Origin: a virus
Reading direction: 5' to 3' (one strand)
Virus record (IMG/VR): IMGVR_UViG_3300046511_000119
Location: 1-41,986 of that record
DNA length: 41,986 bases
Notes under the pieces: model-generated
Seen by the model: the letters and a program-made list of their open reading frames with translations, nothing else
Told to the model about the DNA's origin: nothing
Databases searched by the model: none
Translations under genes and position numbers: made by a program
Shown here: in pieces, positions 3,172 to 28,677 of the stretch
Numbering within the stretch: position 1 is the stretch's first letter
Layout of the letters: each line of letters begins with the position of its first letter

Positions 3172-3471
3172 ATGCACATCGACATCAAAACCAATGACGA
3201 CGGTGACAAGCCATTCAAGTTCCGGCTTACGACCTTTGATCCGGCCGGGGGAATCAAATCGACATACCAGATCGAGGTCGACGGCTACCAGCTGACGGAC
3301 GCTGGCCTTCTGATGCTCTATCAGCGCGTCAAGGTCAAGGGCTACGCCATGGAACTCACCCAGCTGCAGCTGATCGACGTGTACCCACCGGGCAGCTGGC
3401 TCAGGCTGACGCCGATCAAGGACGAAGTGGCGAATGGAACTCAAAGTGTATTACTGGGCCAGAAACACTAA
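3172..3471 (+). CDS. Hypothetical phage protein
   Basis: 99 residues, ATG preceded by ATAAGGACGAC. Short alternating strands (DIKTNDDGDKPFKFRLTTFD, TYQIEVDGYQLTD) followed by a helix (AGLLMLYQRV) suggest a small alpha/beta domain. No motif is recognised. It sits 7 bases after the coiled-coil gene and 17 bases before the phosphoesterase gene, so it is probably co-transcribed with both. Confidence 0.65.
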   Translation: MHIDIKTNDDGDKPFKFRLTTFDPAGGIKSTYQIEVDGYQLTDAGLLMLYQRVKVKGYAMELTQLQLIDVYPPGSWLRLTPIKDEVANGTQSVLLGQKH

Positions 3472-3488: not shown

Positions 3489-4556
3489 ATGACAAACAAC
3501 GCAGGAAGCAGGGAGCAGATTGAAGCACTGGTGCTCCAATGGAAATCAAGTAATCCATCACGGGGCACACGGTGGCTTGCGAAGGTCGTAGGGATCAGCC
3601 GCAACCGTGTGACCCGCATCCTGCGAAAGAACGGGCTGCACTCGCCAGACTTCTGGAAATATCACCCAGCGCATGTCGATGAGGATCTGACGAAGATCAG
3701 CACCCAGTATATGGCCGGTGTCGATCCAGCCAGTGGTCCTGACTTCACCGTGGAATACGTCGTGCCTGAGATCAACAGGGAGACGTTCTATAGCTTCGAC
3801 ATCTTTGTCCCGAACCCAGCCAACAGGCCACGGATGCACTGCATCATTCCTGATGCACAGCAGAAGGACGGGGTGCCGAACGATCACCTGCGTTGGGTTG
3901 GCAACTTCATCGAAGAGAAACGGCCGGACGTGGTCATCAACATCGGTGACTTCGCTGACATGCCTTCGCTCTCCTCGTATTCACTGGGGAAGGCCGAAGC
4001 AGAGGGCTCACGGTACGTCTTTGACATTCGGGCAGCGCAAGAAGCAATGGCTGCACTGATGCGTCCGATCCAGCGGGCACAGAATTACAAGCCGCAGCTG
4101 GTGCTGACACTGGGCAACCACGAGAACAGGATCGATCGCGAGGCAGAAGCAAACCCGCGGTTCGAAGGCAAGATCTCAACGGATGACCTGGAGTACGAGA
4201 AGTGGGGCTGGCAGGTCTACCCGTTCCTGGACGTGGTGAAGATTGACGGCTGGGAGTACTCGCACTACTTCACGAGCGGTGCAATGGGCAGGCCGGTGTC
4301 GAGCGCAGCAGCCTTGCTGCGTGAGCGTCAGTGCAGCGCGGTCCAGGGTCACGTGCAGTATACCGACATGGCGATCCACAAGAAGACGGGCAACATCGCG
4401 ATCTTCTGCGGGATCTGCTACCTGCACAACGAGAAATATCTCACCCCGCAGGGGAACTCGACGCGGCGCCAGATCATCATGCTGCACGAAGTACACGACG
4501 GCTATGCCGATCCAATGTTCGTGTCGCTGGCATTTTTGAAATCGAAATATTCATAA
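3489..4556 (+). CDS. Calcineurin-like metallophosphoesterase with N-terminal HTH
   Basis: 355 residues. Residues 22-50 (SRGTRWLAKVVGISRNRVTRIL) form a helix-turn-helix. From about residue 115 a metallophosphoesterase fold follows: Asp122 (PDAQ, replacing the usual DxH), Gly-Asp154 (NIGDFADM), Asn210-His211-Glu (TLGNHENR), His259 (YSHYF) and Gly-His288 (VQGHVQ). These are the metal-binding blocks of the family, with the first His changed to Gln as in many DNA-related phage members. The enzyme would hydrolyse phosphodiester or phosphomonoester bonds using two metals; the substrate is unknown. The DNA-binding domain suggests a nucleic-acid target. Confidence 0.85.
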   Translation: MTNNAGSREQIEALVLQWKSSNPSRGTRWLAKVVGISRNRVTRILRKNGLHSPDFWKYHPAHVDEDLTKISTQYMAGVDPASGPDFTVEYVVPEINRETFYSFDIFVPNPANRPRMHCIIPDAQQKDGVPNDHLRWVGNFIEEKRPDVVINIGDFADMPSLSSYSLGKAEAEGSRYVFDIRAAQEAMAALMRPIQRAQNYKPQLVLTLGNHENRIDREAEANPRFEGKISTDDLEYEKWGWQVYPFLDVVKIDGWEYSHYFTSGAMGRPVSSAAALLRERQCSAVQGHVQYTDMAIHKKTGNIAIFCGICYLHNEKYLTPQGNSTRRQIIMLHEVHDGYADPMFVSLAFLKSKYS

Positions 4557-5881: not shown

Positions 5882-6550
5882 ATGAGTCCAGTAGCAACGA
5901 CAGCACAAGAGAAACCAACGACAGGCGCCGCGGACGAGATGTATGAGCCGATGACGTCGATCCTGTTCAACACGGTGCTCGCAGCACAGCCGAAAGGATC
6001 GTTCGTCCTCGACATCGGTGGCGGCAACTTCCATTACAGCCAGCTTGCCATGGATCGAGGCATGAACGTGCTCGCCTTCGAGCCCCGTGTCGACCTGAGC
6101 CCCAAGAGATCTGGGGACAGCCTGCACGTCCGCCGTGAAGCGGTCAGCAACATCAACGGCCACGCTGCCCTGTTCTACACCCCATTCAGAAAGTACTCCG
6201 CATCGATCATCGCCCGTGCCACCAACCGTCACTCACATGAAGTCATCGTCGAGACCGTCACCCTGGACAGCGTGTGCTGGGGCATGCGGCCGGTCGCAGT
6301 CGTGAAGCTCGACATCGAGGGAGCTGAGCCGCTCGCGCTGCAGGGTGCAGAGTGCCTGCTGCACGCCAACCGGCCGGTGATCTTCATCGAGGTACTCAAC
6401 AACAGCATCGGCCTGGAGATCTCGAAGCATCTACCGAAGGGTTACGAGTTCTACAAGATCGACGACTACAACATGACGGTCACGCCGATGCCTGCACTGG
6501 CAGTGGGCGACGACTGGAACAACTTCATGCTGCTGCCGGTGGGGAGATAA
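5882..6550 (+). CDS. FkbM-family SAM methyltransferase
   Basis: 222 residues, ATG behind CCGGGAGAGG. SAM-binding motif I is FVLDIGGGNF (41-50), the acidic end of strand 2 is AFEP (65-68), and the FkbM hallmark VKLDIEGAEP is at 141-150. FkbM enzymes O-methylate sugars, polyketides or other small molecules. In phages the substrate is unknown; modification of a host glycan, of virion sugar or of a nucleotide is possible. A MazG/DUF1599-like gene starts 2 bases after the stop, so the two are co-expressed. Confidence 0.85.
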   Translation: MSPVATTAQEKPTTGAADEMYEPMTSILFNTVLAAQPKGSFVLDIGGGNFHYSQLAMDRGMNVLAFEPRVDLSPKRSGDSLHVRREAVSNINGHAALFYTPFRKYSASIIARATNRHSHEVIVETVTLDSVCWGMRPVAVVKLDIEGAEPLALQGAECLLHANRPVIFIEVLNNSIGLEISKHLPKGYEFYKIDDYNMTVTPMPALAVGDDWNNFMLLPVGR

Positions 6551-8030: not shown

Positions 8031-8054
8031 TTGGCACTCGAAATGTATTAGTCA
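8031..8054 (+). promoter_or_regulatory. Phage promoter-like motif, copy 2
   Basis: TTGGCACTC at 8031-8039, AATGTATTAGTCA at 8042-8054. Followed by CGTCGTTCG, similar to the bases after copies 1, 3 and 5. An intrinsic terminator lies 35 bases downstream, before the next start codon. Confidence 0.65.
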
Positions 8055-8089: not shown

Positions 8090-8127
8090 CGGGGCAGCGA
8101 GCAATACGCTGCCCCGATTTTTTATTT
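8090..8127 (+). terminator. Strong intrinsic terminator between motif copy 2 and the next gene
   Basis: Perfect 10-bp stem CGGGGCAGCG (8090-8099) with CGCTGCCCCG (8107-8116), 7-base loop, then ATTTTTTATTT. The gene at 8141 starts 13 bases later, so this either ends the upstream operon or acts as an attenuator for transcripts from copy 2. Confidence 0.9.
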
Positions 8128-8140: not shown

Positions 8141-8413
8141 ATGACCGAGGTCATTCTGCCAGCTGGTGAAGCCAGTGTCTACTTCATGAGAGACCTGACA
8201 ACGAAAGGTGACGAAGAGGGGATGAGCGAAGTGCGCGAGCTGAGACGGCGCCGAACGGACGCTCTCGCCGCGACTGCTGCGAAGGCCAGGAAAAAAGCGG
8301 AACTGGCATCAAGGCCGAAGAAAGCAAGGAAGCGAAAGAAATTAACCGGCCCGCTTGAAGAGGTACGGATACCGATTTATGGCGAAGATACAGCTCCCAA
8401 AGAATCTGAGTGA
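8141..8413 (+). CDS. Lys/Arg-rich small protein
   Basis: 90 residues, ATG behind CTGGAGGGTTCAC. The middle (residues 35-72) is extremely basic and Ala-rich (RRRRTDALAATAAKARKK, KKARKRKK), typical of a nucleic-acid-binding tail. The ends are acidic. Its 3' end overlaps the start of the exonuclease gene by 35 bases. Possibly a DNA-binding partner of that enzyme, inferred from overlap only. Confidence 0.6.
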   Translation: MTEVILPAGEASVYFMRDLTTKGDEEGMSEVRELRRRRTDALAATAAKARKKAELASRPKKARKRKKLTGPLEEVRIPIYGEDTAPKESE

Positions 8414-9158
8414 CGTCCAGGCGTCAGGCGTAACACTGCCGGTCGAGATGGCTGAGTGTTGCTGCTTCGTCTGGACACCTGAGTCGCTCGACAAAGACAC
8501 GAAGGTGAGGTTCTGCGAAGAGCATCACCGTTACTGGCGCGACTCCATCGAGCTGGTCAGCGTGACGCGCATGCTGCGCTGGACGTGGCCCATCAAACCG
8601 AATGCCGATGAGCCTGTGGACCAGCGGGTGATCGACAACGCGAGAGATCGCGGGGTCATAGTCGACCGGATGTTCTCAGCCTATGTGATCGGGAAGCTCG
8701 ATCCTGAGAACCTGCCGCCCGTGCGGGAGGATGCGATCGACCTGTTCAACAAGCTGCGCCGCTGGTGGGACGCACAAGGGTTCACGGAGAAGAACACCAG
8801 GAGCCAGCTGCTCCTGGCTGACGGCACGTTGGCCGGTCAGTGCGATCTCTTCAACCGTGATCAGCGGCCGACGATCCTCGACGTCAAGTGCGTGTACGAC
8901 ATCGACCTGACATATCAGCTGCAGGTTGGTGGGTACGGCGATCTCGCATCGAAGATGGAAGCGTATGGAGAGATCGAGCGGCTGGTGCTGCTGCACGCGA
9001 CGAAGCGGTTCAAAGAGGTGCGGGTGATCGAGGTCGACGCGAAGCTGGCCATGGAGGATTGGAGATCGTTGCGCCGCATGTACGAAGTAGTCGGCCGACG
9101 GACGGGACTGTGGGGAGGGACTGAAAAGGAAATGAAAGGAGGGTTACGCTGTGGATAG
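8379..9158 (+). CDS. PD-(D/E)XK exonuclease (RecB/Cas4-like)
   Basis: 260 residues from the ATG at 8379; an upstream TTG at 8355 is a weaker choice. The nuclease core shows GQCD (Asp156), ILDVK (Asp168-x-Lys170) and a following YQLQVGGY motif typical of the RecB-nuclease family. Residues 65-110 contain a helical R-x-x-R-G segment often seen N-terminal in phage members. The N-terminal Cys-rich part (ECCCF, RFCEEHH) could hold zinc. It probably resects DNA ends for recombination with the Sak4-like ATPase encoded downstream. Confidence 0.8.
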   Translation: MAKIQLPKNLSDVQASGVTLPVEMAECCCFVWTPESLDKDTKVRFCEEHHRYWRDSIELVSVTRMLRWTWPIKPNADEPVDQRVIDNARDRGVIVDRMFSAYVIGKLDPENLPPVREDAIDLFNKLRRWWDAQGFTEKNTRSQLLLADGTLAGQCDLFNRDQRPTILDVKCVYDIDLTYQLQVGGYGDLASKMEAYGEIERLVLLHATKRFKEVRVIEVDAKLAMEDWRSLRRMYEVVGRRTGLWGGTEKEMKGGLRCG

Positions 9159-9477
9159 GGAACTAACGATGGACACGTTAGACAAGGAACACAAACACTT
9201 TCAAAAGTGGCTGTCGTTTCACCGCGAGAATCCCCATGTGTATGGGGAGATCGTGGCACTGGCCCGCGAAGCCATTCGGTCGGGGTACAGCCGGTGGGGC
9301 ATGCAAGGCATCTTTGAAATTCGACGTTGGGAGAATCGATACAAAAATCCAGTGGACGTCGATGGCTACAAGATGAATGACCACTATCGATCTTTTTACT
9401 CTCGTTGTGTCATGGAGAATGAGCCAGACCTCGTTGAGTTCTTCGAAATTCGTGAGAGCAGGAGTATGGCACTCTAA
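9151..9477 (+). CDS. Conserved phage protein (phage hypothetical with W-x3-Ky-G-x-K pattern)
   Basis: 108 residues. GTG at 9151 is preferred because AAAGGAGGG lies 8 bases upstream; ATG at 9169 is the alternative. The pattern FHRENPHVYGEIVALAREAI, then IRRWENRY, GYKMNDHYRSFYSRCVME and FFEIR matches a widespread but uncharacterised small phage protein family known to me by sequence look. All helical; no enzyme motif. Its stop lies inside copy 3 of the promoter-like motif. Confidence 0.7.
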   Translation: MDRELTMDTLDKEHKHFQKWLSFHRENPHVYGEIVALAREAIRSGYSRWGMQGIFEIRRWENRYKNPVDVDGYKMNDHYRSFYSRCVMENEPDLVEFFEIRESRSMAL

Positions 9478-9489
9478 GTGTATTAGTCA
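9466..9489 (+). promoter_or_regulatory. Phage promoter-like motif, copy 3 (ahead of the sigma gene)
   Basis: ATGGCACTC at 9466-9474, AGTGTATTAGTCA at 9477-9489, then AGGCGTTCG. The motif overlaps the stop codon of the upstream gene. It is the nearest promoter-like element to the operon that includes the sigma factor, so self-activation is possible. Confidence 0.65.
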
Positions 9490-9542
9490 AGGCGTTCGAC
9501 AGTAACAACGTAAGTACAACCGAAAGGATCAAAGAAGGAAAC

Positions 9543-9815
9543 ATGGCAAGAAAATCAGCAGCAGCAACGGCGATCGTCTACGGAGAGTTCTCTCTGTTCT
9601 TCACAGGGGCGAAGCTCAAGACGGGTGCCGACTACAGCAAGCAGATTGAGGATGCCGCACAAGGCATGATCGAACTGCAGGCATTGATCGGCCGCATGCA
9701 GGCCGCACAGGGCCGCACGAAAGCGGTAGCAGGAGCGAAGAGCACTCGGACTCGGAAAGGTGTGAACACTCCGAGTGCCATCCCAACAGAAGCAGCGTCA
9801 GAAGCAGCGGCCTAA
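9543..9815 (+). CDS. Small hypothetical protein upstream of the sigma factor
   Basis: 90 residues, ATG behind AAGAAGGAAAC. N-terminal basic stretch (MARKSAAATA), a central helical part (YSKQIEDAAQGMIELQALIGRM) and a Lys/Thr/Ala-rich tail. The 3' end overlaps the sigma gene start by 41 bases, suggesting coupling. Position just before a sigma factor invites the thought of a regulator, but nothing in the sequence proves it. Confidence 0.6.
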   Translation: MARKSAAATAIVYGEFSLFFTGAKLKTGADYSKQIEDAAQGMIELQALIGRMQAAQGRTKAVAGAKSTRTRKGVNTPSAIPTEAASEAAA

Positions 9816-10431
9816 TCGCCGCAAGCTAACGCTTGAGGATTTCGAGTCCGCAGTCAGTAAGTACTACCCCCGTATCGTTCTTTACTGCGGCAAGAGCACG
9901 AACTGGCATGACGAACATGCGGATCTGGCTCAGCAAACGTTTCTGAAAGCGAGACGGGCGTTCCATAAGTTCGAAGGACGCAGCTCGCTGTATACGTGGT
10001 TCCACACAATCGCTCAGAACCTCGTGATCGACTGGCGACGAAAGCAAAAGCAAGTCGCTACGGTCCCATTGGACAAACACGACTGGGGAGGTAACGGTGC
10101 AACGCTTGATGGTTGGCCCACCGAATACGGTGAGTCTGCAATCGCGCACTCCGACCTCATCCAGCTGAGCGAAGCAAGCTCGTGCCACGCCATCGGTGAT
10201 CCGCTGCGCGCTGTCTTCTCTCGCGAAATACGCGAGATCGTTGAGGGTGCGTTGGATGAGATGACCGACAAGGAGCGTCAAGCATACGAGCTTCAAGTGG
10301 ACGAAGGCAAGAACACGCGGGAGGTCGCAGAGCTGCTGGGTGTAGCCGAACAGACCGTGAGGAATCGGTTGCATCTGGCAAGGAAGCGCATCCGGCGCAA
10401 GTTGGTCGAAGCCAATGTGCTGAGTGGCTGA
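9775..10431 (+). CDS. Phage-encoded sigma-70 family factor, ECF-like
   Basis: 218 residues with GTG start at 9775; the exact start is uncertain because of the overlap. Region sigma2 is seen at about residues 20-85 (DEHADLAQQTFLKARRAFHKF, then LYTWFHTIAQNLVIDWRRK), and sigma4 at about 160-210 (MTDKERQAYEL, TREVAELLGVAEQTVRNRLHLARKRI), with no sigma3 between. This is the two-domain architecture of ECF factors. It would redirect host RNA polymerase to phage promoters. Promoter-like motifs occur directly before its operon (9466) and 25 bases after its stop (10457), making it a prime candidate to read them. Confidence 0.88.
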   Translation: MPSQQKQRQKQRPNRRKLTLEDFESAVSKYYPRIVLYCGKSTNWHDEHADLAQQTFLKARRAFHKFEGRSSLYTWFHTIAQNLVIDWRRKQKQVATVPLDKHDWGGNGATLDGWPTEYGESAIAHSDLIQLSEASSCHAIGDPLRAVFSREIREIVEGALDEMTDKERQAYELQVDEGKNTREVAELLGVAEQTVRNRLHLARKRIRRKLVEANVLSG

Positions 10432-10456
10432 CCCTAGCGGGTTGGCCACTCGCCTT

Positions 10457-10480
10457 CTGGCACTCAGATTGTATTAGTCA
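10457..10480 (+). promoter_or_regulatory. Phage promoter-like motif, copy 4
   Basis: CTGGCACTC at 10457-10465, ATTGTATTAGTCA at 10468-10480. Only 17 bases separate its end from the GTG of the Sak4-like gene, with AAAGGA in between. Transcription must therefore start within a few bases of the motif end if the gene is to keep its ribosome site. Confidence 0.65.
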
Positions 10481-10497: not shown

Positions 10498-11409
10498 GTG
10501 AAACTATCTGCAGTCAAGAAACGTTACCGAAAGATTTTCCTGTGCGGGCCAGCCGGTAACGGTAAGACCGTCGGCGGTGCGAGCTTTCCCGGCTCGACGT
10601 ATTGGTTCGAGTTCGATCCCGAGGGGCTGGAGTCGGTCCAGACGTTTTATGGTTCGAAGGGCCAGGATGCCAGCCGCATCGAGGCGATCGAGTTCGATTC
10701 ATACATCGATCACAACCCGGACAAGCCTGTTGCCTACAAGGCGTTCGAGAAGAAGGTCACCGACTGGCAGGCTTACGTTGTAAAGAACGGTCGGATGCCG
10801 TTCGACAACATTGTCCTGGACTCGCTGACGTCGGTTCAGGTCGCACTGGGTCATTACATCAAGTTCAACACGGCGAGTCAGAACCGTGTGTTCGGTGGAG
10901 TGAGCAACCTCCAGGACTACCTGATCCTCAACCACTTCCTGAAGGAGTTGTTCCCTGAGTTCCTGGCACTGCCGTGCAACATCATCGTCACGGCGCACAT
11001 GAGGAAGGTCCAGGACGACACGGGCGCCATCACGTTCGATCCGCTCGTCCAGGGTAAGGATCTGCCCGTGATGATCCCAGTGTGGTTCGGTGAATCGTAT
11101 CACTGCCACACCGTTGAGGGCACGGGAGAGAAGAAAGGGCAAGTCGAGTTCAAGTGGGGATTCAAACCGGATCGTAAGATCGCGTGGGTGAAGTCGAGGG
11201 CACTGCCGTCGACGCTGGCGAGCCCGATCCCTGCTGGCTTTGCGTCGATCAAACCTCACGTTCAGTGGAAGCTCGCAGAGGAGAACCTCCTGGTTCCCGA
11301 AGACATGGCGAGCACGCAAGCAGCCCTGAAGGCAGCAGCCGCAGGCATTGGCACGGCCACAACCGTGGACGATGAAGCAGCCACGCGCCTGAAGAACGCT
11401 ACTTCGTAA
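10498..11409 (+). CDS. Sak4-like RecA-fold ATPase (AAA_24), recombination
   Basis: 303 residues, GTG start after AAAGGATCATAAA. Walker A GPAGNGKT at 17-24, Walker B NIVLDS with Asp108, and a later conserved THAHM-like sensor region (VTAHMRK). Length and order fit the Sak4/AAA_24 single-strand annealing or recombination ATPases of phages. It probably works with the upstream PD-(D/E)XK nuclease and the DUF669-like protein just downstream, a combination common in phage recombination modules. The C-terminal 50 residues are Ala-rich and probably disordered. Confidence 0.85.
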   Translation: MKLSAVKKRYRKIFLCGPAGNGKTVGGASFPGSTYWFEFDPEGLESVQTFYGSKGQDASRIEAIEFDSYIDHNPDKPVAYKAFEKKVTDWQAYVVKNGRMPFDNIVLDSLTSVQVALGHYIKFNTASQNRVFGGVSNLQDYLILNHFLKELFPEFLALPCNIIVTAHMRKVQDDTGAITFDPLVQGKDLPVMIPVWFGESYHCHTVEGTGEKKGQVEFKWGFKPDRKIAWVKSRALPSTLASPIPAGFASIKPHVQWKLAEENLLVPEDMASTQAALKAAAAGIGTATTVDDEAATRLKNATS

Positions 11410-11417: not shown

Positions 11418-11441
11418 TTGGCACGCGAAGTGTATTAGTCA
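11418..11441 (+). promoter_or_regulatory. Phage promoter-like motif, copy 5
   Basis: TTGGCACGC at 11418-11426, AGTGTATTAGTCA at 11429-11441, then ATGCAGTTCGTTTG, similar to the bases after copy 2. The next gene starts 86 bases further on. Confidence 0.65.
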
Positions 11442-11527: not shown

Positions 11528-11917
11528 GTGAGAATACAAGTACCCAAGTCCCTTGATGAAGTTAAGTCCGGCTTTGATCCGCTTCCCGAAGGCACGTATC
11601 GCGTTCGTGCGACGGAAGCCAAAGTCAAAACCAGCGGCAAAGGCAACCCCTACGTCGCGTTCACGTTCCAGGTGGTCGACAACGAGACAGCGAGCTTCAA
11701 CAATCGCAAGCTGTTCCACAACTCGACGATCACCGAGGAAACGCTCGGGTTCCTCAAGCAGGTTCTCGAAGCTCTCGGCACCCCGTGGGATGCGGAAGGA
11801 TTCGATACCGACGACGTCATCGGCAACGAGTGCATTGTTGGCGTGAAGATCCAGCCACGTTCCGATCAGCCGGAAGTGCTGCAGAACACGATCAAGACGT
11901 TCGCCAAAGCTGCCTAG
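11528..11917 (+). CDS. DUF669-like protein, likely single-strand DNA-binding
   Basis: 129 residues; GTG start behind AAGAAAGGTCAACA. Beta-rich (GTYRVRATEAKVKTSGKGNPYVAFTFQVVD, in segments) and ending in helix. It shows the F-x-P-L-P-E-G-x-Y pattern and the TGFLKQVLEALG-type helix typical of the DUF669 family, which is usually encoded beside recombination ATPases and thought to be a phage SSB-like OB-fold protein. Its position after the Sak4-like gene supports this. Confidence 0.75.
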   Translation: MRIQVPKSLDEVKSGFDPLPEGTYRVRATEAKVKTSGKGNPYVAFTFQVVDNETASFNNRKLFHNSTITEETLGFLKQVLEALGTPWDAEGFDTDDVIGNECIVGVKIQPRSDQPEVLQNTIKTFAKAA

Positions 11918-12205
11918 CTAAACGGCGAAATCCGAAAGCCGGGTCAAGGCTTGACGCCTCGGAGAGACGAGGTCAATTCATCGTGGCTGCTTCGGTTGTC
12001 GCTTTACGACATGGGACATCGAGGAGCATATCGAATGTGCGGATCAAGTGCCCATAGGGCAGTGCCCGCGCCAGCCATATCGATTGTCGTAGCCCACGGA
12101 CGGGCAAGCAGGTCCGCTAAACAGGGAGGTAAGGCACCGCACCTGCACGACGAGACGGGTGGCTAGGCTACGAGGGCTGATGCCACCCAACAACCAGGAG
12201 AACAT
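11918..12205 (+). ncRNA. Gene-free, hairpin-rich stretch A; candidate structured RNA
   Basis: 288 bases with no credible gene. Hairpins seen by eye: TTGAC/GTCAA plus CTCG/CGAG with a 2-base bulge (11951-11976), GTCG/CGAC (11998-12010), CGGAC/GTCCG (12097-12116) and a 7-bp GGGTGGC/GCCACCC (12157-12188). The dense GC-rich pairing is unlike ordinary spacers here, which are about 20-120 bases. It could be a processed RNA, a long 5' leader of the following genes, or an unknown riboregulator. No known RNA family is recognised. Confidence 0.4.
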
Positions 12206-13043: not shown

Positions 13044-13138
13044 GACCGATCGACGTGTTCATGCTCCTTGCCGCCGTCATGCTGATCTACTGGGGGATAC
13101 GTTCCCCCAATGATCGTGATGACGACTGGCTTGGTTGA
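13040..13138 (+). CDS. 32-residue membrane mini-protein
   Basis: Begins in an ATGA overlap with the previous gene and encodes a single hydrophobic segment (VFMLLAAVMLIYWGI) followed by an acidic tail (NDRDDDWLG). Overlap-coupled start and membrane helix support it being real. The coding DNA contains a 7-bp hairpin TGGGGGA / TCCCCCA (13091-13109), which may also belong to the structured region that follows. Confidence 0.5.
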   Translation: MRPIDVFMLLAAVMLIYWGIRSPNDRDDDWLG

Positions 13139-13521
13139 TAGGCGAGGGTTCGACTCCCTCCTGTGACGGTCCTTCACGGACGCCCTGCTGGTAGCGGGCT
13201 GGGTGGTTGGCTTCCACCATGGACACATTATGCGGGGTGTGAAGCGCAGATGAAGGCGCAATGACGTTGCCTGTGCGGGCTGGTTAGAGCCTACATCGTC
13301 AAAGAGCTGGGAGAACATAGTCTAATCCTCAAGGTCCGCAGGAGCGGCCTATTCTCTCGGAAAGCACAGTCGGAGGGGCTGCCCCTCTCCCCACCCCGCT
13401 CCAAGTTATGGGATTGCCGGGTCGCACCCGGTCAGCGAGTCTCTTTGCGGAGTCCTGCACTGGTAACGTTCGGTGCAGGCAGCTTGAGCGAGACTCGCTG
13501 TCCCCCCAACCTTCGGAACGA
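13139..13521 (+). ncRNA. Gene-free, highly structured stretch B; candidate large structured RNA
   Basis: About 380 bases without a gene. It holds a tRNA T-arm-like element (13144-13160) and hairpins GTCC/GGAC (13169-13181), GCCC-GC/GCGGGC (13182-13199), GGTGG/CCACC (13202-13218), GAGGGG/CCCCTC (13373-13387) and CCGGGT/ACCCGG (13417-13431). An 11-bp helix CAGCGAGTCTC/GAGACTCGCTG (13433-13443 with 13490-13500) encloses a 7-bp CCTGCAC/GTGCAGG hairpin (13454-13479). Nested long helices of this kind indicate a folded RNA. I do not recognise RNase P, tmRNA, a group I intron or a known riboswitch. Confidence 0.5.
13144..13160 (+). other. tRNA T-arm-like element
   Basis: GAGGG TTCGACT CCCTC: a 5-bp stem with the canonical TTCGANT T-loop. 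No matching acceptor strand or D-arm is found at proper distance on either side, so it is not a complete tRNA. Confidence 0.45.
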
Positions 13522-13545
13522 TTGGCCCTCGAATTGTATTAGTCA
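13522..13545 (+). promoter_or_regulatory. Phage promoter-like motif, copy 6 (ahead of DNA polymerase)
   Basis: TTGGCCCTC at 13522-13530, ATTGTATTAGTCA at 13533-13545. It lies between the structured stretch and the DNA polymerase start at 13590. Confidence 0.65.
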
Positions 13546-13589: not shown

Positions 13590-16271
13590 ATGGATGCGAA
13601 GCAACTGTTCAACAAGCTGGCCGGTGATCTGCCCACGCATTATGGGTTGTCACTGGCCAGCAGGCTCACCCCGCCGAATGGTCCCACCACTGCGCGCATC
13701 GTTGTCATCTCCGACTATCCATCGCACCAGGACGAGAAAGGCCGAGGCTCACTGACGAGCTGGGCTGGCAAAGAGTTCGACAAGATGCTGCGGAACGTCG
13801 GCATCGATCGAGCCGAAGTCTACGTCACCGATCTGGTGAAGCTCAAGCCGCTGAAGAACGACATTTCGAAGGCCGAGATCCCATGGACTGACCCACTGTG
13901 GGCGGACATGCTGAAGCGCGAGCTGGAGGAGATCAAGCCGAACGTCGTGATCGTCCTGGGATCGGTGAGACGGAAGAACATCGCTCTGAATGCACTGTGC
14001 AGCCGTCCAGGCAGCGACATGTCGACGATGAAGTACCGCGGTTCCGTGCTGGAGAGCACACTGGTCCCCGGATTGAAAGTCGTCCCGACGATCCACCCAT
14101 CGGCAATCATGAACCAGTGGGCATGGCGCCAGCTGGTTGTCGCTGACCTGGAGAAGGCGAAGAGCGAGAGTGGGTTCAAAGAGATCCGCCGTAAGAACCG
14201 AAGGTTCTTCACCCGGCCGACGTTCAACCAAGCTATCCAGTGGATTGATGACATCATCGCCAGCCGCAAGGAATACTGCGTTGACATCGAGACGGGCAAG
14301 AAGTTTCACTTCATCTCGTGCATCGGACTGGCGAAGTCGGACACCGAGACGATGTGCATCCCGTTCATCGCGAACAAGGGATCGTACTGGAGCGAGCGGG
14401 AGGAGTACGAGATCTGGAAGCGGCTTGCCGTGTTGTTGGAGAGCGACATCCCGACGATCTATCAGAACGGTCTGTTCGATATGTTCTGGCTGACACTCCA
14501 TGGGATCAAAGTGAACGCGCACAACGTGTGGGACACGATGCTGATGTTTCACCTCCTCTACGCCGAACTCCCGAAGGGTCTGGACACACTGTGCTCGATC
14601 TATACGGATCTGCCGTATTACAAGGACGACGTCAAGGCACACAACTGGAACGTCTCGGACGACGCACTGTGGGACTACAACTGCCGTGACACAACCGGCA
14701 CTTGGGAGTGCAAGCAGAGGCTGTTGGAGGAGATGAAGGAGTTCCAGACTCCCAAGATCTATCTGCAGTCGCTCCGCAAGTGGAACGTCCTCGACCTGTA
14801 CACTCGAACGATCCAACCGCTGGTTGCTGACATCCTGAAGACGGAGATCCGTGGAGTCAAGATCGATACGATCAAGCGTGCAGCCGCAGCGGTCGAGCTG
14901 GGTGTGAAGATCGTCGAGGCGCAGGCACGCCTGGATGCCGTGGCCGGTCACGCACTGAACGTGCAGTCACCGAAGCAGCTCAAGGAGTTCTTCTACAAGG
15001 AGTGCGGAATCGAGGAGCAGGTCAACCGCAAGACCGGCAAGGTGAGCACGAGCGAAGAGATCCTGCTGAAGATCCAGGACAAGCTGACGTTCGAACAGCG
15101 CACAAGGGAAGAGGCTGCGAGCACCCGCAAGCGTCAGCCATCGGCCGCTCAGCTTGCTAAGTGGGATCTGGAGGAGCGGGTGCTGCAGGCGATCCCGGCC
15201 GTGCTCGACATCCGAGGCTACAAGAAGATCAAGAAGACATACCTGGAGGCACAACTTGACCCTGATCAACGAATACGCTGCTCTTACAACCCGGCAGGTA
15301 CTGATTTTGGACGACTCGCATCCAGTAAGAGTCCTCTCGGTTCCGGTGGAAACCTTCAGAACATCCCCCCTGGAATCACACGAGACATTTTTATCGCAGA
15401 TAACTGCGAGAGAGCGCCGGGACTTCATTGTTATGAAGATCTCCCACCAGTGCAGAAGGTCGACAAAAAGGGTGAGACGTATGAAGTATCGCAGTGGTCG
15501 ATAGACCCTCTCCACCCACCCGACATCTGCGTCTTTGACACATGCACGATGTGGCTTGCTGGTGACTTGTCGCAGGCTGAAGCGCGCATCGTGGCATACA
15601 TCGCGCCCGAGACGAACATGATCGCGGCCTTCGAGTCGGGTCAGGACATCCACATCTACAACGCATCGCTGCTCTTCGACATCCCCTACGAGAGCATGCA
15701 CGGTGAGTCACCAGAGCGGTTCATCGCGAAGCATCTGGTCCACGCGTGCAACTACAAGGTGGGCAAGGGCAGGTTCGCAGACACGGTGAACATCAAAGCG
15801 AAGATGCACGGTGTCGATGTGTTCTTCACGCCAGAGAAGGCAGGGACCGTGCAGCAGCTGTACTACACGAAGTTCTCAGGCATCCCTGCGTTCCACAAGT
15901 TCGTCGAGGACGAGATCAAACGCAGCCACATGCTCTGGAATCTCATGGGCCGTCCACACATCTTCTTCGACCGTGCCGACGACAACGTCTTCCGCACTGG
16001 CTACGCCTGCATACCGCAGGGTACGGTGGCCGACATGGTGAACATCGGCTATGTGCGAACCGCGAAGTGGTATCCAGTGGTGCTGCAAGTGCATGACTCG
16101 ATCACGACGCAGATCAAGCCGCGGGAGGTGGAGCAGGCAATGAGGGTGATGGAGGATTCGTTCAGGATACCGCTCAACGCCCACGGCAAAGAGTTTTATA
16201 TCCCGATGGACTTCAAGATCGGGCCGTCGTGGGAGAACGCGAAGAAAGTCAAGCTGCCGAGAGCAGCATAG
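13590..16271 (+). CDS. Family A DNA polymerase with N-terminal uracil-DNA-glycosylase-like domain
   Basis: 893 residues; ATG with AAGGAAG upstream. Residues 30-190 resemble family-4 UDG (VLGSVRRKNIAL, then motif HPSA with His169). The usual Cys ligands of the iron-sulfur cluster and the GExPG acid are not evident (ISDYPSHQD, DLVKLKP). A 3'-5' exonuclease domain begins with Asp232-x-Glu234 (VDIETG). The polymerase domain has motif A GDLSQAEARIVAY (Asp659), a motif B of the R-x3-K type (RFIAKHLVHACNYKVG) and motif C VHDS (Asp836) with Ser837 where Glu is usual. It is the replicative polymerase; the glycosylase part may detect uracil or be structural. A related fusion exists in SPO1-like phages. 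Confidence 0.9.
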   Translation: MDAKQLFNKLAGDLPTHYGLSLASRLTPPNGPTTARIVVISDYPSHQDEKGRGSLTSWAGKEFDKMLRNVGIDRAEVYVTDLVKLKPLKNDISKAEIPWTDPLWADMLKRELEEIKPNVVIVLGSVRRKNIALNALCSRPGSDMSTMKYRGSVLESTLVPGLKVVPTIHPSAIMNQWAWRQLVVADLEKAKSESGFKEIRRKNRRFFTRPTFNQAIQWIDDIIASRKEYCVDIETGKKFHFISCIGLAKSDTETMCIPFIANKGSYWSEREEYEIWKRLAVLLESDIPTIYQNGLFDMFWLTLHGIKVNAHNVWDTMLMFHLLYAELPKGLDTLCSIYTDLPYYKDDVKAHNWNVSDDALWDYNCRDTTGTWECKQRLLEEMKEFQTPKIYLQSLRKWNVLDLYTRTIQPLVADILKTEIRGVKIDTIKRAAAAVELGVKIVEAQARLDAVAGHALNVQSPKQLKEFFYKECGIEEQVNRKTGKVSTSEEILLKIQDKLTFEQRTREEAASTRKRQPSAAQLAKWDLEERVLQAIPAVLDIRGYKKIKKTYLEAQLDPDQRIRCSYNPAGTDFGRLASSKSPLGSGGNLQNIPPGITRDIFIADNCERAPGLHCYEDLPPVQKVDKKGETYEVSQWSIDPLHPPDICVFDTCTMWLAGDLSQAEARIVAYIAPETNMIAAFESGQDIHIYNASLLFDIPYESMHGESPERFIAKHLVHACNYKVGKGRFADTVNIKAKMHGVDVFFTPEKAGTVQQLYYTKFSGIPAFHKFVEDEIKRSHMLWNLMGRPHIFFDRADDNVFRTGYACIPQGTVADMVNIGYVRTAKWYPVVLQVHDSITTQIKPREVEQAMRVMEDSFRIPLNAHGKEFYIPMDFKIGPSWENAKKVKLPRAA

Positions 16272-20883: not shown

Positions 20884-23800
20884 TTAGTGAGTGAAGAATC
20901 CCAGATACTTCCGACCACTCACCACAGTCGACGCGAGGAAGTCTGCGATCGCCGCGGCAGCCTCCTGATTCAGCCCATTGAAGTCCCATGTTGGGTTCTC
21001 AGCTGCAGCAGCTCCCTGGACGAAGTATGCGAGACCACAAGGCACATTGTTAAAGCCCCCAGGCACAGTGTTCACGAGCGTGAACCCGGAATTGATCGTA
21101 AGACCATCCGTGCCGTCAGGGGCTAAGGCAGCGATGCCCAGTGTGCCCGCCGAGCTGGGTGTGATCGAGCCAGTTGCGAGACTGGTCGCACCGGCTGTGG
21201 TCGCACCGTTCTCGTGATCGAACGGGCCGGATGCTTTCGCTCCAGAGAATACCGCAACACAGAGCGACGGGTACGACATGGTGTGCGAGACTGAGAACGT
21301 ATGACCAGTGCCGACAGTGCAAGGATTGCAGTATGAAATTCGAACAGCGATGTTGGTGGTTACCTTCGTCGTGAGACCATTCCATGTATTCGCCTTGCTA
21401 TCGGTAAATGTCGGCGGCGAGAACCCTTGATCCACTCCCTGCACAACCACGATCAGGTTTCCACCAGACGAGTCAATCACGGAGGTGGTGACGGTGTTGG
21501 CGTCACTGCTGGCTGCGGCAGTGTTGGTGAGACATCTCCAACCATGCCCGAGACTCGTGTTATTGCATGCTGACACTGTGTTGAATACGAATGCCCCAGC
21601 ATCCCATGCCCCGGCTGGTTGTCGTGCAGCATTAGCAAAGTCAGTCGTGAAGATGCTGAAGAGGTTGGTGCCAGTTCCGATTGCAGGACTACCGCCTTGC
21701 AGATGGAAGTCGCCAGTCCCTGAATCCGCAAACACTGGATTAACTCCAGCATCGGTCGTACTACAGCCCGACACATTGAAGTTCGTGATGCAAGATGTAG
21801 ACGTGCCACCATCTGAAATCGCACCATTCGTGTTCTGATAACAGATGTTGTTCTCGAAGATGTTCCCCGTGTCGGACGAGTCTGTGACGGTCGCGCAGTA
21901 GCCAGTGCTTCCGAAGAAGACATTGTTCGCGATGAGGTTGCCTACCGAACCACTGTAGATGTTGAGACCATTCAGGTTCGCGTGAGCATTCGTTCCCCAG
22001 ATCAGGTTGTTGTAGAACTGGTTGTTGTTGCCATGCCCGATCAGAACTCCATCACCGCTCGAACTCGGGTCAGTCCCTGTCGAGTTGTTGAAGATGCGGT
22101 TGTTGCGGATGATGTTGCTGTCTGCCCCGAACCCGCTGTAGTAAACATGCAGGCCGAACCCACCGTTGTCGTGCAGGTAGTTCCCTTCGATGAGGTTGTG
22201 GTTCCCGGAGACGTAAACACCGTAGTGCGGGTTGTTGTAGAACTCCGAGTTCGTGAGCTGCGAGTTCGATACCTGTGGGCCGAACCCGATCCCGTACTCT
22301 CCAGCGTGCGAGCCGTCGTCTGTGGCATTCAGCCCGACGCAGTTGTTCACGATGAAGTGATCGCCCGTTCCGGGTGCGTCCGGTGAAAGATGCCAAGGGT
22401 TCGACAGGGAGTTGACACCATCAGCGACCAGCCCATCGAACGTGACATAGGATGCGGTGAGCACCGTTGCACCGATCTGAATAACGTAGTGACCGCCCGT
22501 TGGGCGCAGGGTGACTTGTCTGGCGTTGATTGCCTTGATTATTGTTGGGGCGCCAGCAGAGCCGCTGGGCACGATGTTCCGAAGTGCTTCGGTATATGTG
22601 CCGTCACCGATAAGCAGCGTGTCCCCACCGGACATGCAGCCGATGCCTGCCAAGATGGTCAGCTTCCCGTTGGCCGGTGTTGAGGACTTTGCAGTCGTGC
22701 AGCTGTTTGCATCCGAGCCGAGCTTATTGACGTAATAAACCGTTGCTCCAGCCAAGCCATTGAATGGGCCAGCATCCCAAGCTCCCATTGATGGTCGCGG
22801 ATTGCCGTCGAAGTCTACCGTGCAGCAAGTGCCCGTAAGATTAAGGCCAAACCCTAAAGCAGGACTACCTGCCTGGAGATGGAAGTCACCAGTCCCTGGA
22901 CTGACAAACTGCGGATTGACACCACCCTCTGGTGAACCACAGCCGCCCGTGACATTGAAGTTGTTGCTGCAGATCGCCCCACCTGACGTCGAGTCATCGA
23001 TAGCGTCAGGTGCTCCGAGGTTGTGGGCACAGATGTTATTCCTGGCGATGATGCCGCTCGGAAGACCGGAACCGAAATCATTATACTGCATGCAGGCAGT
23101 AGCACTGTTGAAGATGACGTTGTTGAAGATAAATGCCGAGGTGACGAATGTCGTGCTGATTTCGATCCCGACATTCGAACCATAGATGACGTTGTTGTAT
23201 GCTTGGTTGCCTGGACCTCCCGCGATCAAAATCCCAGCCTGCCCATCACCCTGGATTACATTGTTTCGGAAGATGTTATTTATGCCATCAGCGTGGACTG
23301 TATAGTTGTGAATCGAAAATGCAGAACTATTCGTGAACCGATTTCCATCGATGATGTTGTCATGGTCAGCTGTGCCAACATAGACCGCGTGATCATACAG
23401 CGATGTGTCAGCCGCACCAGTGCTGATGAAATCGTTATTCTTAATCGTGCTGAAACTGTATGGTCCTTCCAGACCTGACGCTTCACCGATTGACGTTCCG
23501 TCTCCACCAACCCTGTAGAATGTCCCATTGATGATAGTCAGGTTCGTCACGGGGACGGTGGGAATGACACCACCGCACTGGGTCGAGTAGTGAGTAAAGC
23601 AGTCAACGTAAAGGCCATCGAACGTCACATAATTATGTGTGAGGATCGACAAATAGTGACCATTGGCTGGCCGGATCTTCGCCAGATTGCGATTCCGCGC
23701 CCGGATGATTGTGGGATGTCCAACTGATCCAGCGGGCGGGTTGAAATCCTGCTCATCGTAGTTCCCATCACCAACGATCAAAGTATCACCACCCGACAGG

Positions 23801-25269
23801 CAGGCGAGTCCAGCTGCGATGGTCAGCTTCGAATGGCTCGGTGTTACCCCGCCCGTTTTTGCTGTTGCACAACTGTTGGCGTCGACGCCTGCTTTGTCGA
23901 CATAGTAAGTCACCGAGTCTCCGCCGCATGCCGCCGGGATCGTTCCAAAGAGCGAATTCATTGTGGCCGTAACGTCAACAGCAGTTCTACCCGCAGCAGT
24001 CAGGGCCGCTTTGATCCGATCATTCATGGGCCATGGCCAGAGCGGAGTCGAGGTTAAAGTGCCATCGACATATTGGTAGCAGACTCTCGCCCCAGTTCCT
24101 CCTGTACCATTCCAGATATTGTCTGCTGCGGCCACGGAAGCGATCTGCTCTGAATTCGTAACTTGCCAGTCTGTATCAACAAGACGGCGAGTACCAGCAG
24201 TTCGGATCTCAGTCACCTTGTCAAATGTATGGTCACCGGACATCGCAGGGCCACTGTAGATTCCACTCAAGGTAGCATTGCTGGCTGTCATCACCGCTTG
24301 ATCGGCGTAGGCTACAACATCTTTATAATGAATGCAGGTGAGAGCCAATCCCCCTTGGAGCAGACCCAAGCTATTGTTAACATTCATCGGGTCAGTCGTG
24401 ATGATTGGTGTCTCGGCCGCGGTTACATATGCGATGGACCCTAAATATTTCGCGCTTCCGGCACAAACAGAGGCGTAGGTGCCGTCATACAAATCGTTCA
24501 TCCGCTCAAAGATGAACACACCGTACATCCCATTCGCCACTGAGACGCCAGGGTCTGGATCGATTGTGCCGATAACATTTTCATAAAGACCATTGTGGCT
24601 GTTGTACGTATTGGAAAATGTTTCGGATGGTCCTACGTCTCCAGTTGATTTATTCCAAATTCCAAACGCTCTGCGGTAGATGACGCCGTCACTACCTTGC
24701 GAGTTGCCAAAGGTCTTGCGACCCTGCCCAAAACCAGCTACATCTTCAAACAGGTTGTTGGCGTCTGAAGAATTGAAGACAGCATGTCTATCACCTGCAT
24801 CCCACCCAATCGTCCTACGAACAATGTTGTGCGTTGCCCCAACGTCAAGGTCTACAACATTGCTTCCAGCGTCAGCATGCGCGGCGTTAATACCAGTGAT
24901 CACCCACCAGGAATTTCCTGTGGCTAAGCGAATTGGAATCCGCAACGTCTGACCGTCGATCAGAACCCCACCATCTGTTTCCGCTTGCAGTGTGATCGGA
25001 TGGCCGGAAGATCCCGCGCGGCCAGACGCTGGGACGATCATTCCATTTACGCCGGTATAGGTGCCGTTCGCCAGGATTCCAATGTCGTCTGGCCCTAACG
25101 TGTTTCCGCTCACTCCTGCGACAAGTTGAGCCACTGTGCATTTGTTGGCGCTGGAACAGACCGTGCCACTACCCGTCGGAGAAGCATAGAAGGTCGTCGC
25201 CTGAGCGAGACTCGGGAGCAGGAGCAATGCCAGGAAGGCAAAGATGAGAGTTCTGAAAAATGTCTTCAT
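20884..25269 (-). CDS. Giant secreted parallel beta-helix protein (pectate-lyase-like fold, three modules)
   Basis: 1461 residues from the ATG at 25269 (GGAAAC precedes it, as at the neighbour gene); an ATG at 25287 would add six residues. Starts with a signal peptide MKTFFRTLIFAFLALLLLPS ending in LAQA. Three right-handed beta-helix modules follow, near residues 25, 455 and 845, the last two beginning YYVDKAGVDANSC and YYVNKLGSDANSC and sharing CLSGGDTLIVGDG-like turns. Many N-N-x-I/F repeats (NNVIFN, NNLIWG) are the helix rungs. From about 1225 a beta-sandwich ends the protein. The fold is used by tailspikes and polysaccharide lyases. A Sec signal on a tail-locus protein is odd. Confidence 0.8.
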   Translation of the reverse strand: MKTFFRTLIFAFLALLLLPSLAQATTFYASPTGSGTVCSSANKCTVAQLVAGVSGNTLGPDDIGILANGTYTGVNGMIVPASGRAGSSGHPITLQAETDGGVLIDGQTLRIPIRLATGNSWWVITGINAAHADAGSNVVDLDVGATHNIVRRTIGWDAGDRHAVFNSSDANNLFEDVAGFGQGRKTFGNSQGSDGVIYRRAFGIWNKSTGDVGPSETFSNTYNSHNGLYENVIGTIDPDPGVSVANGMYGVFIFERMNDLYDGTYASVCAGSAKYLGSIAYVTAAETPIITTDPMNVNNSLGLLQGGLALTCIHYKDVVAYADQAVMTASNATLSGIYSGPAMSGDHTFDKVTEIRTAGTRRLVDTDWQVTNSEQIASVAAADNIWNGTGGTGARVCYQYVDGTLTSTPLWPWPMNDRIKAALTAAGRTAVDVTATMNSLFGTIPAACGGDSVTYYVDKAGVDANSCATAKTGGVTPSHSKLTIAAGLACLSGGDTLIVGDGNYDEQDFNPPAGSVGHPTIIRARNRNLAKIRPANGHYLSILTHNYVTFDGLYVDCFTHYSTQCGGVIPTVPVTNLTIINGTFYRVGGDGTSIGEASGLEGPYSFSTIKNNDFISTGAADTSLYDHAVYVGTADHDNIIDGNRFTNSSAFSIHNYTVHADGINNIFRNNVIQGDGQAGILIAGGPGNQAYNNVIYGSNVGIEISTTFVTSAFIFNNVIFNSATACMQYNDFGSGLPSGIIARNNICAHNLGAPDAIDDSTSGGAICSNNFNVTGGCGSPEGGVNPQFVSPGTGDFHLQAGSPALGFGLNLTGTCCTVDFDGNPRPSMGAWDAGPFNGLAGATVYYVNKLGSDANSCTTAKSSTPANGKLTILAGIGCMSGGDTLLIGDGTYTEALRNIVPSGSAGAPTIIKAINARQVTLRPTGGHYVIQIGATVLTASYVTFDGLVADGVNSLSNPWHLSPDAPGTGDHFIVNNCVGLNATDDGSHAGEYGIGFGPQVSNSQLTNSEFYNNPHYGVYVSGNHNLIEGNYLHDNGGFGLHVYYSGFGADSNIIRNNRIFNNSTGTDPSSSGDGVLIGHGNNNQFYNNLIWGTNAHANLNGLNIYSGSVGNLIANNVFFGSTGYCATVTDSSDTGNIFENNICYQNTNGAISDGGTSTSCITNFNVSGCSTTDAGVNPVFADSGTGDFHLQGGSPAIGTGTNLFSIFTTDFANAARQPAGAWDAGAFVFNTVSACNNTSLGHGWRCLTNTAAASSDANTVTTSVIDSSGGNLIVVVQGVDQGFSPPTFTDSKANTWNGLTTKVTTNIAVRISYCNPCTVGTGHTFSVSHTMSYPSLCVAVFSGAKASGPFDHENGATTAGATSLATGSITPSSAGTLGIAALAPDGTDGLTINSGFTLVNTVPGGFNNVPCGLAYFVQGAAAAENPTWDFNGLNQEAAAAIADFLASTVVSGRKYLGFFTH

Positions 25270-25286
25270 GTTTCCAATCACAGCCA

Positions 25287-27287
25287 TTAGAAGTTATCCA
25301 GCATGGAGAGGAAGTCCCACTTGCTGGCCGTTGCGTTGTACTCGAAAGCCAGATACATGGTCTTCCCGAGTGTCGTTGCCGTAGGCAGTGCGAGGTCGGA
25401 GCTGGCTCGATAGATTGCGTTCCAGGCCAGCGTCCGGGAAGTACCGTTGTCTGTGACTCGAATCAGCAGCCGATGACCTTGTGCTGGAGAACCAGAAGGC
25501 GCCGCGAACGTGGCGTTGACCGCCAGTGCGGTAACAGTGAACTCGCTGTCCTTTGCATCCGTCGGTGTCGGCGTTGAGCTGGAAGCGACAGTCGTCGATG
25601 CTACGGTTGGCGGGGTAACCTGCACTCCATTGAGGAAGAGAGCGGTGAGGTTGACTCCTCCAGTACCTGGATCTCCACCGGCCGGTGAGCCGAGGATGAT
25701 GCTGGGTGCCGTGATGTGGCCCTCGATCCCAAGGTTGCCGAGACGGTCCAGGATCATGGCCAATGTCTGAGCGGTATTCGCCGGATTCGTGTAGAACTCG
25801 ATGCGGGAGGGCGGACGCTGCCCAGAAGTAAATGTGCCATCGACTACGAAATTGATCTGGGCACCACCAAAGTAACCACCACCGGAATATGCGTTGTTGG
25901 CGATGATCCCTGTTTTATCGTTGTTGGCTGAGTTCGTGCGAGACGCTTGACTCCCATTCGCTTGCTGGAACTGGAGGACGCTTCCGGTGCTGCCGATCGA
26001 GTCAAGAACGGCAAACGTGATGCTGTTACTGCCAACATAGAACTGACCAGTAGAATTGGTGGTGTCAAACATCGATACGGTGTCGCCAAAACGCACTGCC
26101 CCAGCACCCGTATAGAGCGCATAGTTCGTGACGCTACCAATGTTCTGGTCATCGATCTTGATCCCGTAGTTCCTCGTCAAAGCACCGGCCGACTTGCTGT
26201 TCGAGTTGATGTACAACCCATAAGCATTCGTGGTCGTGCCACCACCAATCACCACTCCTTCGGAGCGGAGAACAGACACGTCAGTGGCCGTACCGCCGTT
26301 GATGTTCGTGACGCCTGCCGCAGCTGATACGTTGGTAGCTGTGCCCGTGGTCAGGATGGCGTTCGCACCCAGCCCCTCCAACCTCGTAACTGTCCCGGCC
26401 GTCTGCGTTGCGAGCCCATAAGTGCCGACGAGTGTTGTCGTCGTGCCCGCACCACCTTGCGTGGAGAAACCGTAGAAGGCAACGCCAGAGGAGCGAGTGC
26501 CCGAAGGGTTGTTCGACGTGAAGGCCGAGTTTGCACCACGCAGCGTGGTCGTGTCAGTGATGGTCGTAGCGACGTCGAAGGGGTAGCTGGGAGACACCCG
26601 AATGCCGAGAGCACCAATGAACTTGACGGGCGCGCCGGGGGTATTAATGAGATCGATGGCATCACCACCCGTACTCGTCCAGAGCATCAAGTCAGTGGAT
26701 GAAACAGGGCGATAAACTGCTCCCGAGTCAACTCCAGCAGACTGCAGGTAAAAGGTGCTCTGGTTCCCGAATGGGGAGTTTACCCTCACGCCTGCTGCAG
26801 AACTGACACCAGTCAGGATGAGTGAGCCATTCGAATGCTGCATCGTTTGGGTAAACGTGCCAGTGCCGTCTGTCGCGTTGGTCAATCCCCATTGGAGCGG
26901 GATGTTGGAAGCCGTAGAGCTATAAACTTGCCGAAGGGTTGCATCGCTACCGTAAGAGAAATATGCCCAGTTCGATGGGTCACGATAGATTGTGAGGCGC
27001 GATTGAGTGAATGGCGTATTTACTGGGGCAGTTTGAATACGAAACTCACCGGCAGTGGTGGCTGAGAACACCGTGGCCGAGGTCGAGAAGTTCCCCGCCA
27101 CAGCGGTATTCCGCTCCAGAGCGAAGACATCACCATTCAGATGGAAGCGCCACAGCCCAGCGGGCAGCGTCTGGTCTGTCTCCCGCATCTGGAGCTTCAG
27201 GTCGGTGCCGCTGAACTGAGCCCCTGCGGGCTGCACTATGCTGAGCAGCAGCGACAAGCTGAGAATAAATGTCAGAAGTCTTTTCAT
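25287..27287 (-). CDS. Secreted tail-fibre-like protein
   Basis: 666 residues, ATG behind AAGGAAAC. Signal peptide MKRLLTFILSLSLLLSIVQP followed by AGAQ. The body is Gly/Thr/Ser-rich beta repeats (GVRVNSPFGN, LGIRVSPSYPFDV, NYGIKIDDQNIGSVTNYALYTG in segments) of the kind seen in trimeric fibres. The C-terminus (FTVTALAVNATFAAPSGSP, SKWDFLSMLDNF) resembles phage tail fibre tips. Its stop overlaps the next gene's alternative ATG. As with the neighbour, the signal peptide suggests export rather than normal virion assembly in the cytoplasm. Confidence 0.75.
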   Translation of the reverse strand: MKRLLTFILSLSLLLSIVQPAGAQFSGTDLKLQMRETDQTLPAGLWRFHLNGDVFALERNTAVAGNFSTSATVFSATTAGEFRIQTAPVNTPFTQSRLTIYRDPSNWAYFSYGSDATLRQVYSSTASNIPLQWGLTNATDGTGTFTQTMQHSNGSLILTGVSSAAGVRVNSPFGNQSTFYLQSAGVDSGAVYRPVSSTDLMLWTSTGGDAIDLINTPGAPVKFIGALGIRVSPSYPFDVATTITDTTTLRGANSAFTSNNPSGTRSSGVAFYGFSTQGGAGTTTTLVGTYGLATQTAGTVTRLEGLGANAILTTGTATNVSAAAGVTNINGGTATDVSVLRSEGVVIGGGTTTNAYGLYINSNSKSAGALTRNYGIKIDDQNIGSVTNYALYTGAGAVRFGDTVSMFDTTNSTGQFYVGSNSITFAVLDSIGSTGSVLQFQQANGSQASRTNSANNDKTGIIANNAYSGGGYFGGAQINFVVDGTFTSGQRPPSRIEFYTNPANTAQTLAMILDRLGNLGIEGHITAPSIILGSPAGGDPGTGGVNLTALFLNGVQVTPPTVASTTVASSSTPTPTDAKDSEFTVTALAVNATFAAPSGSPAQGHRLLIRVTDNGTSRTLAWNAIYRASSDLALPTATTLGKTMYLAFEYNATASKWDFLSMLDNF

Positions 27288-28208: not shown

Positions 28209-28670
28209 TTAGGCTGTTGGCTGGTCGGTTGAGTGCTGCAGCTTGGCCCTCAGATCAACCTCGCTGCCGTGCCAGTGCTTCTCGGCATCCTCGAACTTGT
28301 CGAGCAGCCGGGTGTATGTTTTCCGGCGAGGTTGCGGAGGCTGCACACCGTCTAATAGGCTGTTGATGAGCACGAAGCCAGCATCCTCTACAAAGATGTA
28401 CCCACGGAGGTTGCCCACCAGCTCACGGCGCGTCGGGACACGCCACCATTCGAAGTTCGGCGGTGCGATGACCTTGGTCCCGTGTGGGCAGATGATGTGA
28501 TCGGGAGTGGCGATTGCCTCTGAGATGCTCTCAAGCTGCAGCTCAACTGCGTCGGCCGTGCGTGCTTCAGCACGCGTCTTTGTTTTCACAAACGCCCATG
28601 CTTCCCAGAGGAACTCGAAGACATCACGATCTTCCTGGTTGAGCGGATTAAACTTGATGAGGTATCCCAT
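28209..28670 (-). CDS. Hypothetical protein
   Basis: 153 residues. Helical start (DRDVFEFLWEAWAFVKTKTRAEARTADAVE, in segments), a central beta part (HIICPHGTKVIAPPNFEWWRV, split) and a helical end (LLDKFEDAEKHWHGSEVDLRAKL). Its start codon lies 7 bases from the - strand copy of the promoter-like motif. No family recognised; could be a fibre chaperone from its place near fibre genes. Confidence 0.6.
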   Translation of the reverse strand: MGYLIKFNPLNQEDRDVFEFLWEAWAFVKTKTRAEARTADAVELQLESISEAIATPDHIICPHGTKVIAPPNFEWWRVPTRRELVGNLRGYIFVEDAGFVLINSLLDGVQPPQPRRKTYTRLLDKFEDAEKHWHGSEVDLRAKLQHSTDQPTA

Positions 28671-28677
28671 AGCCCTC

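Follow-up and report, generated by a model that had tools for sequence, protein, structure and literature searches.

The DNA analyzed here, a 41,986-nucleotide stretch (the window) from the record IMGVR_UViG_3300046511_000119 of an environmental phage that has an integrase gene, carries nine copies of a long asymmetric motif, and five copies of a variant are found in a related viral contig. From their sequence and placement, we infer that the 14 sites are best read as a promoter class. That the ECF sigma factor encoded in the window, a type of protein by which host RNA polymerase is redirected, reads them is plausible and is inferred more weakly; a phage-wide promoter class read by this factor is our leading explanation, held tentatively. 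The weights that we place on this and the competing explanations are judgements and not computed probabilities.

The sigma factor gene and the ORF in front of it are located as follows.

9543 to 9815, + strand: ORF for 90 amino acids, the first of the presumed sigma operon (ORF list)
9775 to 10431, + strand: gene for an ECF-type sigma factor with regions 2 and 4 (Pfam, phrog_1740, TIGR02937, and, by sequence, PDB ECF chains)

The sigma ORF begins with GTG and encodes 218 amino acids. It matches the Pfam families Sigma70_r2 (E = 7e-13), Sigma70_r4_2 (E = 4e-13), and Sigma70_ECF (E = 3e-7), the "RNA polymerase sigma factor" family phrog_1740 (E = 2e-25), and the NCBIfam sigma70-ECF superfamily model TIGR02937 (95 bits; cut-off, 43), while all of the NCBIfam subfamily and equivalog models listed for it scored under their own cut-offs. 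According to Pfam and NCBIfam, the protein has region 2 and region 4 and lacks region 3, the arrangement that defines ECF (group IV) factors, and in sequence comparison its best PDB matches include ECF sigma factors with solved structures. Relatives encoded in bacterial genomes are mostly 22% to 31% identical to it over full or long alignments, with higher values only in short stretches, and a pattern scan for the motif at the loci of these relatives gave a single weak match, in locus L072. The 90-amino-acid ORF had no family match in profile searches and overlaps the sigma gene by 41 bases, which makes an operon plausible. ECF sigma genes in phages are already known from the phiEco32-like phages.

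The nine motif copies and the replication genes downstream of three of them are listed below, in order along the window.

2421 to 2444, + strand: weaker motif copy after the integrase gene (score scan with the matrices)
3434 to 3457, + strand: weaker motif copy before a metallophosphoesterase gene (score scan with the matrices)
8031 to 8054, + strand: motif copy before the gene starting at 8141 (mismatch scan and the relative's matrix)
9466 to 9489, + strand: motif copy preceding the sigma operon, copy 3 of the earlier note (sequence ATGGCACTCTAAGTGTATTAGTCA)
10457 to 10480, + strand: motif copy between the sigma and Sak4 genes, copy 4 of the earlier note (sequence CTGGCACTCAGATTGTATTAGTCA)
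10498 to 11409, + strand: Sak4-like gene downstream of copy 10457 (phrog_124, AAA_24)
11418 to 11441, + strand: motif copy before the DUF669 gene (a copy at the matching place in the relative G005)
11528 to 11917, + strand: gene for a DUF669/single-stranded DNA-binding protein downstream of copy 11418 (Pfam and PHROG matches)
13522 to 13545, + strand: motif copy before the UDG-PolA gene (mismatch scan and the relative's matrix)
13590 to 16271, + strand: UDG and DNA polymerase A gene downstream of copy 13522 (Pfam and PHROG matches)
28676 to 28699, - strand: weaker motif copy before ORF 28209-28670, on the late strand (score and regular-expression scans and the relative's matrix)
37858 to 37881, - strand: weaker late-strand motif copy in front of the gene in ORF 37431-37913 (matching copy in G005)

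With up to three mismatches allowed, TGGCACTCGAAKTGTATTAGTCA occurs five times in the window, whereas 100 shuffled sequences averaged 0 copies, and the weaker copies 2421+, 3434+, 28699-, and 37881-, identified by the score and regular-expression scans, bring the total to nine. Two of these (28699- and 37881-) lie on the late strand before late genes. A possible tenth site, 20869-, reached only 12.1 bits and was not counted. The earlier note placed the sigma gene between two motif copies, the second of them 25 bases past its stop codon, and both the ORF scan and the motif scan confirm this arrangement, the distance from the stop codon to copy 10457 being exactly 25 bases. The Sak4 (10498), DUF669 (11528), and UDG-PolA (13590) genes each have a motif copy upstream. 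The portion of the earlier note considered here mentions neither the weaker copies nor a conserved AGT directly before TTGG. The part of its proposal in which the motif is a regulatory element common to the sigma, Sak4, DUF669, and polymerase units is supported, and the motif reaches further, to four weaker copies, to late genes, and to the relative G005; the other part, in which the ECF factor is the reader, is plausible.

The 62,340-bp viral contig G005 (IMGVR_UViG_3300014166_000003; pieces L010, L032, L033, and L034) encodes a PolA 70% identical to that of the window. Several of its late genes are also related to those of the window, as are its DUF669 and DUF3987 proteins. Pattern scans identified five copies of a variant motif in it, one of which lies between Sak4 and DUF669, at the place matching window copy 11418, and another in front of the late-gene ortholog of the window gene in ORF 37431-37913, at the place of copy 37881. 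A sixth site, at ~36,422 on the - strand, has one base deleted, and a matrix match inside the G005 PolA gene is coding sequence and was not counted. When a matrix built from the five G005 sites only was run on the window, all nine window sites were within the top ten matches (14.4 to 32.8 bits), eight of them at 16.4 bits or more. Site 37881-, at 14.4 bits, scored below an unrelated match (27043-; 15.8 bits) and below the maximum of six Markov-simulated windows (15.1 bits); since this score is within the chance range, the copy rests mainly on the matching position in G005. The matrix from all 14 sites, trained on the very sites that it scored, gave a mean of 0.075 matches above 15 bits in 40 simulated windows, with a maximum of 17.9 bits.

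Among the contigs scanned, only the window and G005 carry the motif. A looser scan yielded 40 stretches, among which G005 alone was clearly real, and four other viral contigs with one full match each were taken as chance. L117, L121, and L124, which are overlapping pieces, gave several weak matches, and those checked lie within large tail genes or run antisense to them. G005 has ORFs that read, by sequence and position, as terminase, portal, and major capsid genes. No such genes were identified in the window, which (right end, 41986) is therefore probably a fragment.

The consensus of the 14 sites is AGT-TTGG[CAT]AC-TC-nAA-n-TG[T/C]A-n-n-A[G/C]T[C/G]A, a motif of 24 to 28 bases with a conserved AGT directly 5' of TTGG. 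In 24-mer numbering, T2, G3, G4, T14, G15, A17, A20, and T22 are invariant. The spacing of the outer blocks, TTTGG and [G/C]T[C/G]A, is 16 bases; ECF promoters have their -35 and -10 boxes ~16 to 17 bases apart, but in this motif the interior is conserved as well. All 14 sites have the orientation of the genes downstream of them, which favors a promoter class. At the seven + strand window sites, the motif ends 17 to 86 bases before the assigned start codon, although for copy 2421 the ORF in question, a small one, is doubtful. For copy 28699-, the distance is 5 bases. The motif was rejected as an RNA element: a single copy folded alone formed no stable RNA structure, and the window had no Rfam match.

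The promoter reading is weakened by the similar orientation and placement of the stoperators of mycobacteriophage L5, which are asymmetric, intergenic repeated sites co-oriented with transcription in an integration-capable phage (PMC9283540). A repressor or activator of the phage could bind at the motif, for instance as a stoperator-like block of transcription in the lysogen, in which case the motif would not be a promoter. In favor of this reading, both an integrase and an excisionase-like regulator are encoded by the phage, and several motif copies begin within a few bases of an upstream stop codon. However, the conserved stretch is about twice as long as the 13-base L5 consensus, which is bound by a known monomeric repressor, whereas no repressor gene was identified in this phage, and ribosome-binding sites and start codons follow closely after the copies. 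We regard a repressor or activator site as improbable.

In the leading explanation, many operons on both strands would have at their 5' ends a long promoter of a single class, defined by the motif. The ECF sigma factor, expressed from an operon with a motif copy at its own 5' end, would bind the host core RNA polymerase and initiate at the motif sites, thereby autoregulating its own synthesis and turning on the recombination, replication, and late genes together. The contacts could be made, for example, by region 4 at (A)GTTTGG and, at a spacing of 16 bases, by region 2 at A[G/C]T[C/G]A. Phage sigma factors with promoters of their own have precedents in phiEco32, where the promoter element is tAATGTAtA, and in 7-11, where the promoters GTAAtg-(16)-aCTA precede late genes (PMC8948821). 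The phiEco32 (Kuravirus) factor gp36 is likewise a phage ECF-type sigma, and its promoters precede middle and late genes on both strands (PMC4331800, PMC8948821). However, phiEco32 is a lytic podovirus, and the gp36 system has a single short element and lacks both region 4 and a -35 box (PMC8948821); in a pairwise BLASTP comparison with this one phiEco32-like member, gp36 had no significant match to the window sigma. The 7-11 factor gp47 retains region 4, as the window protein does, and its promoter boxes are also 16 bases apart (PMC8948821). The box sequences differ, though, and conservation of the 7-11 promoter interior has not been reported. That the sigma operon is itself preceded by a motif copy also supports the ECF factor as reader, as autoregulated ECF genes are expected to have their own promoter copy upstream (PMC5333181).

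Several observations speak against the ECF factor. A two-box ECF promoter would not be expected to have an invariant TG.A at its center, as this motif does, the spacing of sigma-54 promoters fits all 14 sites, and copy 8031 runs into a terminator.

8090 to 8126, + strand: intrinsic terminator with a 10-bp stem and a T-rich tail (terminator and folding prediction)

This strong terminator begins 35 bases past copy 8031 and ahead of gene 8141, and the copy may thus yield a short RNA instead of driving the gene. An RNA started there would be ~70 bases long and would carry UCUCCUUUCG, which is complementary to ribosome-binding sites. Phage 7-11 gives a further reason for caution: the motif computed for it (PMC4331800) differed from that which primer extension later revealed (PMC8948821).

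Against the ECF factor also stands G005, the only close relative, which carries the motif and has no sigma gene in its sequenced part: no PF04542 match was found in its 62.3 kb. A PF08281 match in a 300-amino-acid ORF just before the terminase-like gene was weak (E = 5e-4) and under the cut-off, and this ORF was judged from its place to encode the terminase small subunit rather than a sigma factor. The G005 contig starts inside Sak4, and the window genes upstream of Sak4, namely, the exonuclease gene 8355-9158 and a 108-amino-acid ORF (9151-9477), have no real match in it either; the likely place of a sigma gene, if there is one, therefore falls in the gap. Eight of nine more distant PolA relatives had no region-2 sigma match. 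The distant PolA relative G014 (IMGVR_UViG_3300037420_000837; 70.5 kb) has an ECF sigma gene of its own (L136:1420-1989), the product of which is 24% identical to the window sigma. The matrix scan of the nine distant relatives, which covered L040 to L043 as whole records and the others in part (for G014, the 22 kb of L039), gave no match of at least 15 bits. The pattern of motif and sigma gene in these relatives, G005 included, does not bear strongly on the link between the two, either way. A search of G014 for a repeated dyad turned up terminators as well as codons for zinc fingers; the method was also weak on the window itself. No close prophage relatives were found in the genome contigs searched with two PolA peptides.

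The spacing noted above is that of sigma-54-type (-24/-12) promoters, and the motif fits this layout at least as well as it fits an ECF promoter. The sites could then serve host RpoN together with a host activator, and the phage ECF factor would have another target. All 14 sites have a TTGGCAC-like box and GG-N10-G(T/C) followed by A, and they match the sigma-54 consensus at 8 to 11 of its 13 positions. GG is present in 14 of 14 sites, but the usual GC at -12 is found in only 2 and is replaced by GT in the other 12, so that GG-N10-GC does not describe the set. Genuine sigma-54 promoters with GT at -12 are nevertheless known in Salmonella, namely, those of pspA, hydN, and pspG (PMC3844500), and that of pspA (TGGCACGCAAATTGTATT), which shares the TGGCAC box and the GG-N10-GT spacing, equals copy 11418 at 16 of 18 bases. 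In contrast to pspA-type promoters, the phage motif adds the conserved A[G/C]T[C/G]A, whose invariant A20 and T22 fall beyond the -12 element and are left unexplained by sigma-54. No sigma-54 activator domain was found in the window or in G005 by searches whose controls worked, and a host activator would thus be needed. We also know of no phage that runs on sigma-54 promoters in such a manner, which counts against host RpoN. On balance, RpoN as the reader with a different target for the ECF factor is less likely than the leading explanation but is a serious alternative, second among those considered. The broader proposition, that this integrase-bearing phage uses host sigma-54-type promoters or that its ECF sigma reads a -24/-12-like site and not a -35/-10 pair, we consider rather unlikely.

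A further alternative is that the motif is the promoter of a single-subunit RNA polymerase encoded in an unsequenced part of the phage genome, or of another host sigma factor. An unbroken asymmetric motif of 24 to 28 bases resembles the promoters of single-subunit polymerases in length, and the window is probably a fragment. However, no single-subunit RNA polymerase (PF00940) was found in the window or in the 62-kb relative, in a weak search whose control gave no signal. The large ORFs of the window are those for the integrase, PolA, the DUF3987 protein, and a tail protein (ORF 28703-33484; phrog_31), plus three without a family-assigned function. One of these (ORF 25287-27287) matches a family of unknown function; no family was matched by ORFs 20884-25287 and 33972-36986, and their reading as structural genes comes from position and sequence only. 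Another polymerase or host sigma is, in our estimate, improbable.

If the ECF factor reads the motif, one self-amplifying sigma would run both replication and late genes of an integrase-bearing phage, a single-sigma strategy already established experimentally in the lytic phiEco32-like phages, and the sigma and motif together would become candidates for an orthogonal promoter system. With sigma-54 as the reader, expression of the phage would depend on a stress- or nutrient-responsive polymerase of the host.

Some other features of the window were also observed. Its early genes include a metallophosphoesterase gene (3489-4556) and an FkbM-type methyltransferase gene (5882-6550), and the UDG-PolA protein (13590-16271) carries an exonuclease domain and, at its N terminus, a uracil-DNA glycosylase domain. 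Regions 11918-12205 and 13044-13521 have no confident ORF and no Rfam match; ARAGORN predicted a tRNA-Trp of unusual length at 13075-13169. The left half of copy 37881- forms the 3' arm of a hairpin (37858-37905, - strand), and the same arrangement occurs in G005 at ~20,672 (- strand), with a different stem sequence.
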